A stretch of DNA of 45,860 nucleotides. It comes from Candidatus Villigracilaceae bacterium. Its GTDB lineage: Bacteria > Chloroflexota > Anaerolineae > Anaerolineales > Villigracilaceae. Positions 6,399 to 9,660 of the stretch are shown piece by piece. Each line of letters begins with the position of its first letter. The stretch's first letter is position 1. Location: positions 1 through 45,860 of the forward strand of contig JAPKMP010000026.1 in NCBI GenBank assembly GCA_026645935.1. Direction: 5' to 3'. The notes below the pieces were generated by a model. The model saw only the letters and a list, made by a program, of their open reading frames with translations. It made no database searches and was not told where the DNA came from. The position numbers and the translations under genes were made by a program.

Positions 6399-6971
6399 TC
6401 AACCCAACTGCCATAAAAACCATGCCGAAGGCCGCTCGCGTTTATCCCAGCCGTCTTTGCGGGAAACGAGAGTCAGTTTGTATTGTTGGATAAGGTCGAG
6501 ATCGGCGTCCACAAGCCCGGGACCGGAAAGATGCGGGGCGGATTTGAAGAATCCGTACATAAGCCAGAATCCGTTCGGGGCGAGGACGCGGGTCAATTGG
6601 GTCAGATAATCCGCCTTGTTCTTTATTCCATGGAAACATCCGAGATCGAGCGCGAGGTCGAAAGCGTCGGAGACGTATTGCATTCGGGTTGCATCATCCG
6701 TGAAGACGGATGCCTGTACATTCGCTTTATTGATTTTGCGTTTGGCGGTTTTGATCGCGCGCGGTGAGAAATCGAAACCCGTCACCAGCCAGCCTGCATT
6801 TGCGAGCGTGATGATGTTCGTCCCTGTCCCGCATCCGATGTCGAGCGCGCGCCCGGCGGAATGTGCAGCGATGAAATCGTAAAGTTCAGGCGGCGAGATT
6901 CCGCCATCCCACGGCGCGTTGCCGAAAAGGTAGGCAAGATCGAATTTGATTCGGCGAAATGGATCATTCAT
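6399..6971 (-). CDS. Class I SAM-dependent methyltransferase
   Basis: 190 residues starting MNDPFRRIKFDLAYLFG. The SAM-binding glycine motif (ALDIGCGTGTN, near residues 38-48) is followed by an acidic residue after strand two (VTGFDFS) and by LALDLGCFHG, the usual Rossmann methyltransferase order. The substrate cannot be told; the small size suggests a stand-alone small-molecule enzyme. The start at 6971 lies inside the last codons of the upstream thioredoxin gene (8-nt overlap), so the two are translationally coupled. A longer frame upstream is the shadow of that gene. The stop overlaps an 18-nt repeat (6387-6404) seen again at 15037. Confidence 0.85.
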   Translation of the reverse strand: MNDPFRRIKFDLAYLFGNAPWDGGISPPELYDFIAAHSAGRALDIGCGTGTNIITLANAGWLVTGFDFSPRAIKTAKRKINKANVQASVFTDDATRMQYVSDAFDLALDLGCFHGIKNKADYLTQLTRVLAPNGFWLMYGFFKSAPHLSGPGLVDADLDLIQQYKLTLVSRKDGWDKRERPSAWFLWQLG

Positions 6972-7452
6972 CGGCAAGGGTTTCGCGGACGCGCTGGGGA
7001 TCGAACTCGCCCACCATGCGCCAGACCTCGTTCCCTTCCGCGTCGAAATAGATGAATGTGGGTGTGAATTCGAAATCATATAGCGGCGCGAGTTCCATGC
7101 CCACACTTTCCTGTATGTTGAGGCGGATGATATGAATCTGGTCGCCAATTTCCAGTTCGAGCTCGTCCACGACGGGCTTTATCGAGACGCAGCGTATTCA
7201 GTAGGGGGATTGGAATTCGAGCAGGACCGGCTCTCCCGCGCCGATCATTGCCTGCACTTCCTTTGCATCGTCCATGAGCAGGGTCTGGCGCGGATGCAAA
7301 GTCACCCATGCGGCGACCAGGGCGCCCACGATCACGGCGAATGCGAGATAATCGTTCCAGCGCGGACGATTGGTCAGCAGGATCAACCCGGCGATGAAAG
7401 CAAACCCGGCGGCGACAAAGATGTAGGAATATTGGGTAAAAAGCGTTTCCAT
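6964..7452 (-). CDS. Membrane-anchored thioredoxin-like protein, probable selenoprotein (Sec-Ile-Arg-Cys)
   Basis: One continuous frame of 162 codons interrupted only by TGA at 7198-7200. Residues 1-84 hold two hydrophobic helices (about 8-28 and 34-52) and the first thioredoxin strand (EPVLLEFQSPY). The TGA is codon 85, followed in frame by IRCVSIKPVVDELELE, so it occupies exactly the first redox cysteine of a CxxC motif, giving UxxC (85-88). The rest completes the fold, including the cis-proline loop TPTFIYFD (Pro131). A hairpin with a GUG apical loop lies 28 nt after the TGA. Read with Sec, the gene is intact; read without, it breaks into two meaningless pieces. The alternative is a TGC/TGT-to-TGA mutation or sequence error. 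The likely job is thiol-disulfide or peroxide-linked reduction at the outer face of the membrane. Translationally coupled to the methyltransferase. Confidence 0.72.
7157..7185 (-). promoter_or_regulatory. Candidate bacterial SECIS element
   Basis: In the mRNA sense, UCG (7185-7183), AGC (7178-7176) and CGUC (7174-7171) pair with GACG (7167-7164), GCU (7162-7160) and CGA (7159-7157). The result is 10 bp with a 4-nt bulge, one C-A mismatch and apical loop GUG (7170-7168). The loop begins 28 nt after the UGA and opens with G, which fits the described bacterial SECIS consensus (apical loop 16-37 nt after UGA, a G in its first two positions). Folded by eye only. Confidence 0.5.
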
Positions 7453-7503
7453 GGGGTGTGAATTGGTTCAAAATGTCATAATGAAGGCGTGACTCTCCGC
7501 ACT

Positions 7504-7532
7504 TTGACAATTCATTTGAGTTCTTTTACAAT
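7504..7532 (+). promoter_or_regulatory. Promoter of the EF-G2-like gene
   Basis: Perfect -35 TTGACA (7504-7509), 17-nt spacer and TACAAT (7527-7532), 46 nt before the start codon. Confidence 0.8.
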
Positions 7533-7578
7533 CGTCCAACCTGCTTGACATTCCATAACGACAGGAAGGTAATTCACG

Positions 7579-9660
7579 ATGAAAGAGTATACCACCGAGT
7601 TCATTCGCAACGTTGCGTTGGTGTCGCACGGCGGGGCGGGTAAGACCATGCTCGCAGAATCCTTTTTGCATGCCACGGGGGCGACGACCCGTCTTGGGAA
7701 GGTGGAAGACGGTACGACTGTTTCCGATTACGACGACGAGGAACATAGAAAGAAGATATCGATCTACACGAGCGTCATCCCGGTCGAGCACAGGAATTAC
7801 AAGATTAATTTTCTTGATGCGCCAGGCTACACCGATTTCGTGGGCGAGATGGTTTCCGCCCTGAGTGTGGCTGATGGCGCAATTATTTTGGTGGATGCCG
7901 TCGCGGGCATCGAGGTCGGGACCGAACTTGCCTGGCGTTACTGCGATCAATTCAACCTGCCGCGTTTCATCGTCATCAATAAGATGGATCGCGAGAATGC
8001 TGACTTTGAAAAAGCGTTCGCGCAAGTGGAAGAGTTGGTGAAACGTCACGACAAGCGGGCCATCAAAGTACACCTGCCCATCGGCGCCAAGCACGAATTC
8101 AAAGGCGTGGTCGATATCATCGGCATGAAGTCCTACATGGGGGATGGAAAAACCACCGCCGAGATCCCCGCTGAATTGAAGGAAGCGGCGGACAAAGCCC
8201 ATTTCGACCTTGTCGAAGCCGCGGCTGAAGGCGAAGACGAATTGATGGAGAAATATCTCGAGAACGGCTCTCTCTCGGACGAGGAGATGGTACGCGGTCT
8301 GGAAGATGTGGTCTACGCCGGGAGTTTTGTCCCGGTCTTTTGCGCGGCGGGCGGACACGAAGTCGGCGCAATCGCGTTGCTCAACGACATCATCGACCTG
8401 CTGCCTTCCCCGATACATGCCGTCAAACGGACGGCGCAGGGAAAAGACGGACCCGAAGAATTGAATCCTTCAGATCAGTCGCCTCTGGCCGCTTATGTAT
8501 GGAAGACCACCGCCGATCCTTTCGTCGGCAAGATGACCTACTTCCGCGTGTTTAGCGGATCGATCCAGGCTGATGCACATGTATGGAACCAATCCAAGGG
8601 CGCGGACGAGCGCATGTCCGGTTTGCACTTCCAGCGCGGAAAGGAGGCGATCCCAGCCAAAACAGTCCATGCTGGCGATATCGCCGTCGTCTCCAAGTTG
8701 ACTGTTTCCTCCACCGGCGATACGTTTTGCGATAAGGGACATCCGTTGACAATTGCAAAACCGGTCTATCCGGCGGCGTTAAATCGTGTGGCGGTTTCGC
8801 CCAAGACCCAGGCAGACGCGGCGAAAATTTCGACCGTGCTCACCCGACTAAGCGAAGAGGATATGACCCTCACCTGGCAGAACGATCAGGTGACTCACGA
8901 GACCGTTTTACAGGGCATGGGCGACCAGCATATCGAAGTGGCAGTCAACCGGGCGCAGACGAAATTCCAGGTTGGGATCGTGACCCGCGAGCCGAAGATT
9001 GCCTATCGCGAAGGCATTACGAAGAAAGCCCAGGCGCAATACCGCCATAAGAAACAATCCGGCGGGGCGGGGCAGTTCGGAGAAGTGCATCTTCGAATCG
9101 AACCGTACATGGAAGGCGACTTTGATTTTGTCGATGCGCTTGTAGGAATGAATCTTTCGCGTTCCTATCTGCCGCCGATTGAAAAGAGCATCCGCGCGAC
9201 GATGGAAAAAGGCGCGTTCGCCGGTTACCCGATGAGCAATGTGCGCGTGACCGTTTACGACGGCAAGGAACATGAAGTGGACTCGAAACCGGTCGCGTTC
9301 GAGATCGCCGGGCGCGAAGCCTTCAAACTCGCCGTGGCGGATGCGGGTCCCGTGTTATTCGAGCCGATAATGCTTGTGCGTGTCACCTGCCCGGACGGGA
9401 ACATGGGCGACGTGATGAGCGATCTCAACACCCGGCGCGGTCGCGTGCAGGGAACCGAGTCTGAGCGTGGAACGACCACCATCATTGCGCACGTGCCGAT
9501 GGCGGAAATGTTGAAGTACACAACGCAAGTGCGTTCCATTACCGGCGGGCGCGGCTACTTTACGATGGAGTTCGATCACTACGAAACCGTTCCGAACCAT
9601 ATCGCCGGTTCGATCATTGAAGCGCATAAGAAGGAGATGGAAGCAAAGAAGGAAGAGTAA
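7579..9660 (+). CDS. Elongation factor G-like GTPase (EF-G2 type)
   Basis: 693 residues with full EF-G architecture: GTPase domain (P-loop SHGGAGKT 16-23, switch II DAPGYTDF 80-87, NKMD 134-137), beta-barrel domain II, and the III-V domains with SYLPPIEKSIRATMEKG and the C-terminal GRGYFTMEFDHYE. The P-loop lacks the canonical AHVDHGKT form, and the switch II histidine of EF-G (DTPGH) is replaced by tyrosine. Both traits mark the EF-G2/FusA2-like subfamily, whose role is less clear than that of housekeeping EF-G. An indispensable translocase role is therefore not claimed; a paralogous fusA probably exists elsewhere. GGAAGG precedes the ATG, a strong promoter lies at 7504 and a terminator at 9693, so it is a single-gene unit. 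Confidence 0.88.
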   Translation: MKEYTTEFIRNVALVSHGGAGKTMLAESFLHATGATTRLGKVEDGTTVSDYDDEEHRKKISIYTSVIPVEHRNYKINFLDAPGYTDFVGEMVSALSVADGAIILVDAVAGIEVGTELAWRYCDQFNLPRFIVINKMDRENADFEKAFAQVEELVKRHDKRAIKVHLPIGAKHEFKGVVDIIGMKSYMGDGKTTAEIPAELKEAADKAHFDLVEAAAEGEDELMEKYLENGSLSDEEMVRGLEDVVYAGSFVPVFCAAGGHEVGAIALLNDIIDLLPSPIHAVKRTAQGKDGPEELNPSDQSPLAAYVWKTTADPFVGKMTYFRVFSGSIQADAHVWNQSKGADERMSGLHFQRGKEAIPAKTVHAGDIAVVSKLTVSSTGDTFCDKGHPLTIAKPVYPAALNRVAVSPKTQADAAKISTVLTRLSEEDMTLTWQNDQVTHETVLQGMGDQHIEVAVNRAQTKFQVGIVTREPKIAYREGITKKAQAQYRHKKQSGGAGQFGEVHLRIEPYMEGDFDFVDALVGMNLSRSYLPPIEKSIRATMEKGAFAGYPMSNVRVTVYDGKEHEVDSKPVAFEIAGREAFKLAVADAGPVLFEPIMLVRVTCPDGNMGDVMSDLNTRRGRVQGTESERGTTTIIAHVPMAEMLKYTTQVRSITGGRGYFTMEFDHYETVPNHIAGSIIEAHKKEMEAKKEE

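Follow-up and report, generated by a model that had tools for sequence, protein, structure and literature searches.

Selenocysteine (Sec) forms of thioredoxin are known. In the available text of a 2026 inventory, the thioredoxin family PF00085 with a UxxC active site is a verified selenoprotein family, and the majority of characterized selenoproteins are reported to have a thioredoxin-like fold (PMC13188914). The available text of a 2006 survey counted seven thioredoxin selenoproteins, and three selenoproteins in all Chloroflexi (PMC1794560). The strings "chloroflex" and "anaerolin" are absent from the main text of the 2026 inventory (PMC13188914).

The DNA analysed here (the window) is a stretch of 45,860 nucleotides from a Candidatus Villigracilaceae bacterium; it is contig C18 of a parent genome of 4.33 Mb in 70 contigs. 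On its minus strand a putative selenoprotein gene of 162 codons plus a TGA stop occupies positions 6964..7452, with the ATG at 7452, the terminator at 6966-6964 and a TGA at codon 85 that was read as Sec. That TGA (7200-7198) is the sole internal stop. It falls at the first position of the CxxC motif, so written that the active site reads FQSPY-U-IRC, and is followed in frame by Cys88 (TGC, 7189..7191, minus strand), the second and resolving residue of the UxxC. Translation with table 11 gave instead two open reading frames, of 84 (7198-7452) and 68 amino acids (6964-7170). The product matched the Pfam Thioredoxin model PF00085 at 35.2 bits (cut-off 23.5) over residues 69-158, across the TGA, and was also over the cut-off of PF13098 (34 against 27 bits). 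With the thioredoxin equivalog TIGR01068 it scored 41.5 bits, below the cut-off of 96.8, and neither the window protein nor any of six relatives from the class scored above the cut-off of an NCBIfam 20.0 model. Among the alignments listed, residue 85 was aligned with the first catalytic cysteine in three solved thioredoxins. Downstream in the same frame lies a TP motif with P131 (7060..7062, minus strand), which we take to be the cis-proline of thioredoxins; Pro131 and Thr132 (the PT motif) are invariant in 36 aligned rows, as are, among others, Q81, S82, P83, U/C85, C88, E99 and G148. An earlier note on this DNA, made from the letters alone, had described a frame open on either side of one TGA, the placing of that TGA at the thioredoxin CxxC, and a cis-proline loop beyond it, and had read the gene as a probable selenoprotein. 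These descriptions held: the PF00085 match and the similarity to homologues run across the TGA, and the selenoprotein reading gained support from the Sec machinery, the TGA and Cys homologues and the TGA-linked hairpin presented below. From these sequence comparisons, codon 85 of the window gene almost certainly encodes Sec.

Codon 85 was read in relatives by searching the window protein against 152 genomes of its own family. The family set comprised 82 loci that span codon 85 and score at least 79 bits, one per genome. Left out of the counts were three matches short of codon 85 (G108, G061, G144), the second fragment in G124 (L097), a second record of the gene under study (L096) and four TGA-bearing paralogue loci (L092-L095); the weaker matches listed, which resemble ordinary thioredoxins, also fell outside the set. 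The four paralogues, L092 (G066), L093 (G068), L094 (G041) and L095 (G036), represent a second TGA-bearing thioredoxin-like family, with the motif EFFxFxUGxC and the TGA at the catalytic position. In the 82 loci codon 85 was TGA in 61 and TGC or TGT in 21, so the homologue comparison that the earlier note had proposed at this position returned both states, and residue 88 was Cys (TGC or TGT) in every one. The genes of G053 and G118 are Cys forms whose apparent TGA was the terminator only. TGA serves as terminator in 49 of the 82 genes, that of the window included.

Searches past the family were made with a 36-row profile (A1), to which 154 of the 396 class genomes and 74 of the 400 phylum genomes had matches (32 of the 74 in the class); some in each search are ordinary thioredoxins. 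The catalytic codon was TGA in 55 and Cys in 17 of 72 class loci from other families, which were mostly the best-scoring among the matches listed in the 154 genomes. Among the matches listed outside the class, 20 loci in 19 genomes gave 16 TGA and four Cys codons, which brought the TGA loci of related anchored thioredoxins read at this codon to 132 (61 family, 55 class and 16 outside). A further 80 loci in named genomes, largely the ones already sampled, comprised 54 TGA and 26 Cys forms and were kept out of the counts; these matches were mostly in Anaerolineales and other Chloroflexi metagenome-assembled genomes (MAGs), the nearest at 81% identity. Three Cys homologues stand in records titled Akkermansia or Verrucomicrobia (L173, L174 and L179), and those of the two titled Akkermansia muciniphila MAGs (L173, L174) resemble the copy in the Verrucomicrobia MAG (L179). 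Five TGA loci from outside the class (L279, L280, L282, L285, L286) read UGAS, UAKS or UASS, that is UxxS, with the resolving Cys replaced; in one genome two TGA copies, one UxxC and one UxxS, stand in tandem (G552:C20:73420-75617; L280, L281). The earlier note had held that a two-helix, membrane-anchored UxxC form would be noteworthy here. That form is indeed predicted; it is not a one-off, because recoded members of this family are also present in the rest of the class and beyond it.

The parent genome was searched for the Sec machinery, as the note had suggested, and all four components were present. A tRNA-Sec was found at 66.7 bits (cut-off 47), with the anticodon tca according to ARAGORN, and SelA, SelB and SelD scored 536.8, 358.3 and 361.9 bits against curated cut-offs of 267.9, 242.25 and 125. 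The SelD gene (L181) carries an in-frame TGA of its own (SACAG-U-ASK) and so serves as a natural positive control; by eye, this single gene has a GUC-loop hairpin at offset 36 from its TGA. Across the family, tRNA-Sec was detected in 131 of 152 genomes, among them 53 of the 61 with a TGA gene (G093 being taken as the one unlisted miss). The eight TGA genomes in which it was missed are multi-contig drafts, and SelB was above its cut-off in all eight. Since tRNA-Sec was also present in 19 of the 21 Cys genomes, the presence of the machinery does not discriminate Sec from Cys genes.

A SECIS-like hairpin lies at 7161..7177 on the minus strand, with a seven-pair stem (offsets 23-29 and 33-39, counted from the T of the TGA) and a GUG apical loop (offsets 30-32; 7170-7168). 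It begins 20 nt past the TGA, and 27 nt separate the TGA from the loop, in agreement with the earlier description of a hairpin with a G-starting loop about 28 nt downstream. The window sequence forms six of the seven pairs, with one internal C.A mismatch, and it is the conservation in relatives, not the window alone, that places the hairpin beyond chance. Since many of the stem bases are dictated by the protein motif KPVVDGLE, pairing was compared with a synonymous-codon null, in which codons were redrawn with the protein held fixed and related sequences were treated as independent. The TGA genes of the family (58 distinct sequences) formed 5.97 of seven pairs on average against 3.96 +- 0.12 in the null (maximum 4.43 in 2000 draws), whereas the 21 Cys genes were at chance level (2.57 against 2.54 +- 0.20). 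The class set, scored on the stem as defined from the family set, gave 6.35 pairs against 4.35 +- 0.13 for 55 TGA loci (maximum 4.87 in 1000 draws) and 3.24 against 3.08 +- 0.23 for 17 Cys loci. The loop was GUN in all 58 family TGA sequences (GUU, GUG or GUC) and in all 55 of the class.

When the structure was fixed on 57 TGA sequences, 85.2% of cells were paired and 14 cells were changed on both sides, values that none of 500 shuffles reached; slid structures gave at most 42.1% paired, and the Cys set 36.7%, which is the shuffle level. Two of the five pair measures for these 57 sequences lay within the shuffles, namely pairs changed on both sides (53 of 500) and further pair types (264 of 500). 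Changes on both sides were seen at offsets 26/36 and 27/35, where the class set has several pair types. The third stem position had no standard pair in 23 of the 57, the window gene among them. RNAalifold predicted no pairs, and hence no consensus structure, on the alignment of the 57 TGA sequences, and single-sequence folds frequently favoured other pairings. A search of positions 6500-7700 with Rfam gave no SECIS match, the only two hits being sub-threshold and to unrelated families. On the tree described below, six or more pairs were formed in 101 of 115 TGA rows (14 had fewer) against three of 38 Cys rows. Those three (L086, L236, L246), together with L177, are Cys genes that keep six or seven of the seven pairs, and are possibly recent Sec-to-Cys conversions with a relict SECIS. 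The motif KPVVD(G/E)LE (residues 92-99; 7156-7179) coincides in position with the stem and is less strictly kept in the Cys forms; the RNA element seems to constrain the helix after the active site.

The AF2 model of the protein (mean pLDDT 88.2) has two helices, residues 9-27 and 32-52, followed by a thioredoxin fold. The helices coincide with hydrophobic windows and are predicted to span the membrane (7297..7428, minus strand), and the thioredoxin-fold domain covers residues 61-162 (6967..7272, minus strand). When residues 61-162 of the model were compared with solved structures, the top match was 2yoi_A (Z 15.2, rmsd 1.4 Å over 96 residues), and the best 50 entries were thioredoxins, thioredoxin fusions or designs. 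Positive charges were counted in 81 rows to orient the helices. The mean number of K plus R was 2.65 in the inter-helix loop, 0.21 at the N-terminus and 2.07 in the 15 residues past helix 2; compared with that C flank, the loop had more K plus R in 35 rows and an equal number in 29, and a higher net charge in 59. Of the 34 rows of relatives with a single helix (L224-L267 minus ten removed by eye), 30 had a higher positive charge in the N flank than in the C flank, counted in automatically placed windows of which at least one is misplaced (L226). The charge of the inter-helix loop and the positive N flank of the single-helix relatives argue weakly for an outward domain, and on these counts the thioredoxin domain probably faces outward. 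A role as an outward-facing, membrane-anchored disulfide reductase is a reasonable inference.

The gene has conserved neighbours. Downstream on the same strand is a class I SAM methyltransferase (6399..6971), whose first 8 nt overlap the end of the selenoprotein gene, followed by a metalloenzyme superfamily protein (PF01676; 5426..6343, minus strand); elongation factor G (7579..9660, plus strand) lies divergently upstream. The methyltransferase was found in this position in 66 of the 82 family loci (52 of 61 TGA, 14 of 21 Cys), the metalloenzyme in 62 and the elongation factor in 77; some of the misses, chiefly of the metalloenzyme, fall at contig ends. PF13649 marks the window methyltransferase as a class I enzyme of generic type, and all 25 NCBIfam matches listed for it were below cut-off. 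The methyltransferase, to which the earlier note had put the thioredoxin as coupled, is a conserved neighbour; a functional link would go beyond that observation, since an arrangement of this kind may simply have been inherited from an ancestor instead of marking a shared function. By eye, an ordinary TrxA gene stands directly upstream of the copy in two distant relatives (L232, L252); it encodes a thioredoxin (WCGPC) that is a possible electron donor to the anchored Sec thioredoxin. Two others, L201 and L216, lie directly upstream of a metalloenzyme resembling that of the window.

The history of the Sec and Cys states was followed on an unrooted tree built from 153 proteins under LG+G4 by a quick search and without bootstrap (the fragment L091 was left out), in which 62 of 149 inner branches are weak and several long branches were flagged. 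The distribution of Sec and Cys needs 16 changes, at least ten of them on starred branches, against 34.1 when labels are shuffled. In ten independent pairs the hairpin followed Sec in six on average, opposed it in none and did not differ in four, a weak test (median p 0.03, range 0.016-0.125). Most Cys groups are nested within larger Sec groups, which suggests repeated replacement of Sec by Cys. One old branch is mostly Cys (eight of ten) and the tree is unrooted, so that we infer the direction of change rather than read it from the tree.

A nonsense mutation in a pseudogene, or a miscalled Cys codon, would account for the two short frames under table 11, and Cys homologues do exist. However, this codon is TGA in 61 of 82 family, 55 of 72 class and 16 of 20 outside-class loci, no two family loci share a genome, the protein similarity continues across the codon and the hairpin tracks the TGA, which leaves such an origin scarcely credible. 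The running on of the frame past the TGA would also be expected if UGA were read as some other residue, by a suppressor or under a changed code such as TGA for Trp. A changed code is unlikely because TGA also terminates 49 of the 82 family genes, the window gene included; moreover the alternative residue is Cys in 21 of 21 cases and Trp in none, the Sec machinery is complete and a TGA-tied hairpin lies at SECIS distance, so that this reading is highly improbable. Pseudogene, sequencing error and code change were accordingly rejected on the conservation of the TGA, the TGA terminators and the TGA-tied hairpin.

The two other explanations leave the recoding in place. The hairpin might be a by-product of the protein motif KPVVDGLE, recoding then proceeding without a local RNA signal; the protein-only null indeed already gives 3.96 to 4.35 of seven pairs, and RNAalifold yields no consensus. 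Codon choice nevertheless adds two pairs in two separate sets and nothing in the Cys genes, and changes on both sides occur at offsets 26/36 and 27/35, so we regard a by-product as very unlikely. A true Sec thioredoxin might alternatively face the cytosol and act on a membrane-bound substrate, possibly linked to the neighbouring methyltransferase. The overlap with the methyltransferase gene, which is of 4 nt in 39 of the 66 loci carrying it, would suit such an arrangement, and the charge evidence for an outward domain is modest (59 of 81 rows by net charge). Set against this, the N-terminus is almost without K and R, the inter-helix loop is the most positive segment on average and the N flank is positive in 30 of 34 single-helix relatives; a cytosolic domain is therefore rather unlikely, though far less so than the other alternatives.

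Very likely, then, the gene encodes a membrane-anchored thioredoxin with Sec as its first catalytic residue, decoded by SelB with the hairpin and most likely facing outward. SelB would bring Sec-tRNA(Sec) to the UGA, presumably docking on the GUN-loop hairpin 20 nt downstream. The two N-terminal helices would anchor the protein, with the thioredoxin domain most likely outside, where Sec85 would react with disulfides in its substrates, or with other oxidised substrates, and Cys88 would resolve the mixed selenenylsulfide; a thiol donor of the membrane or the cytosol would then recycle the protein, if electrons flow in that direction. The recoding site, the UGA-tied hairpin, the Sec machinery and the predicted thioredoxin fold are the supported parts of this scheme. 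As a broader and tentative proposal, to which we give somewhat less than an even chance, the relatives would form a phylum-wide Chloroflexota family of outward-facing, anchored selenothioredoxins, with Sec as the older state and Cys as a substitute that arose later and repeatedly. If true, this would mean that disulfides are reduced at the cell surface by a selenium-based system whose genes are cut in two by gene callers, and that the protein motif KPVVDGLE is shaped by an RNA hairpin. A gene caller that stops at TGA would record a truncated membrane segment of 84 residues beside a short orphan frame, so the protein would be missing from proteomes made in this way; as recoded copies of the gene occur in many relatives, a whole family of selenium proteins is probably escaping annotation. 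With at least ten Sec/Cys switches and a hairpin found mostly with Sec, this family lends itself well to testing why Sec is retained or lost, and it is also suited to the study of an RNA element that constrains its host protein.

Compared with canonical thioredoxins, which have the motif WCGPC and no membrane anchor, the window protein has YUIRC and two hydrophobic helices. It resembles TlpA, ResA and CcmG/DsbE, which are Cys proteins of the TlpA-like group, in its N-terminal anchor and probably outside thioredoxin domain, but differs from that group in that the best 50 entries for its model are thioredoxins, thioredoxin fusions or designs. Known Sec thioredoxins are generally soluble, whereas the window protein has two predicted membrane helices and the motif FQSPYUxxC, and it is by this description that it is set apart from them. 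Bacterial SECIS elements lie about 16-37 nt from the UGA, and the window hairpin lies at 27 nt; hairpins of the window type differ from them in their GUN triloop, their seven-pair stem, a third pair that is non-standard in 23 of 57 and the lack of an Rfam match. The anchored branch reaches the cut-off of no NCBIfam model, and it is not named as a family in the available text of PMC13188914, PMC9312934 and PMC1794560 or in the opening lines of the other abstracts listed. Sec thioredoxins as a kind are on record; in the literature covered, neither the anchored family nor its extent appears to have been given a name. With the thiol:disulfide interchange selenoprotein WP_011366075.1, as given in the available text of PMC13188914, the window protein is likened by PF13098 and UxxC alone. 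In the coding region, just past the UGA and with a loop starting in G, its hairpin is like the bacterial SECIS of bSECISearch (PMC1794560, available text), and in fold, position of the Sec and the presence of one Sec the protein itself is like the Sec thioredoxins (PF00085, UxxC) in the available text of PMC13188914 and PMC1794560.
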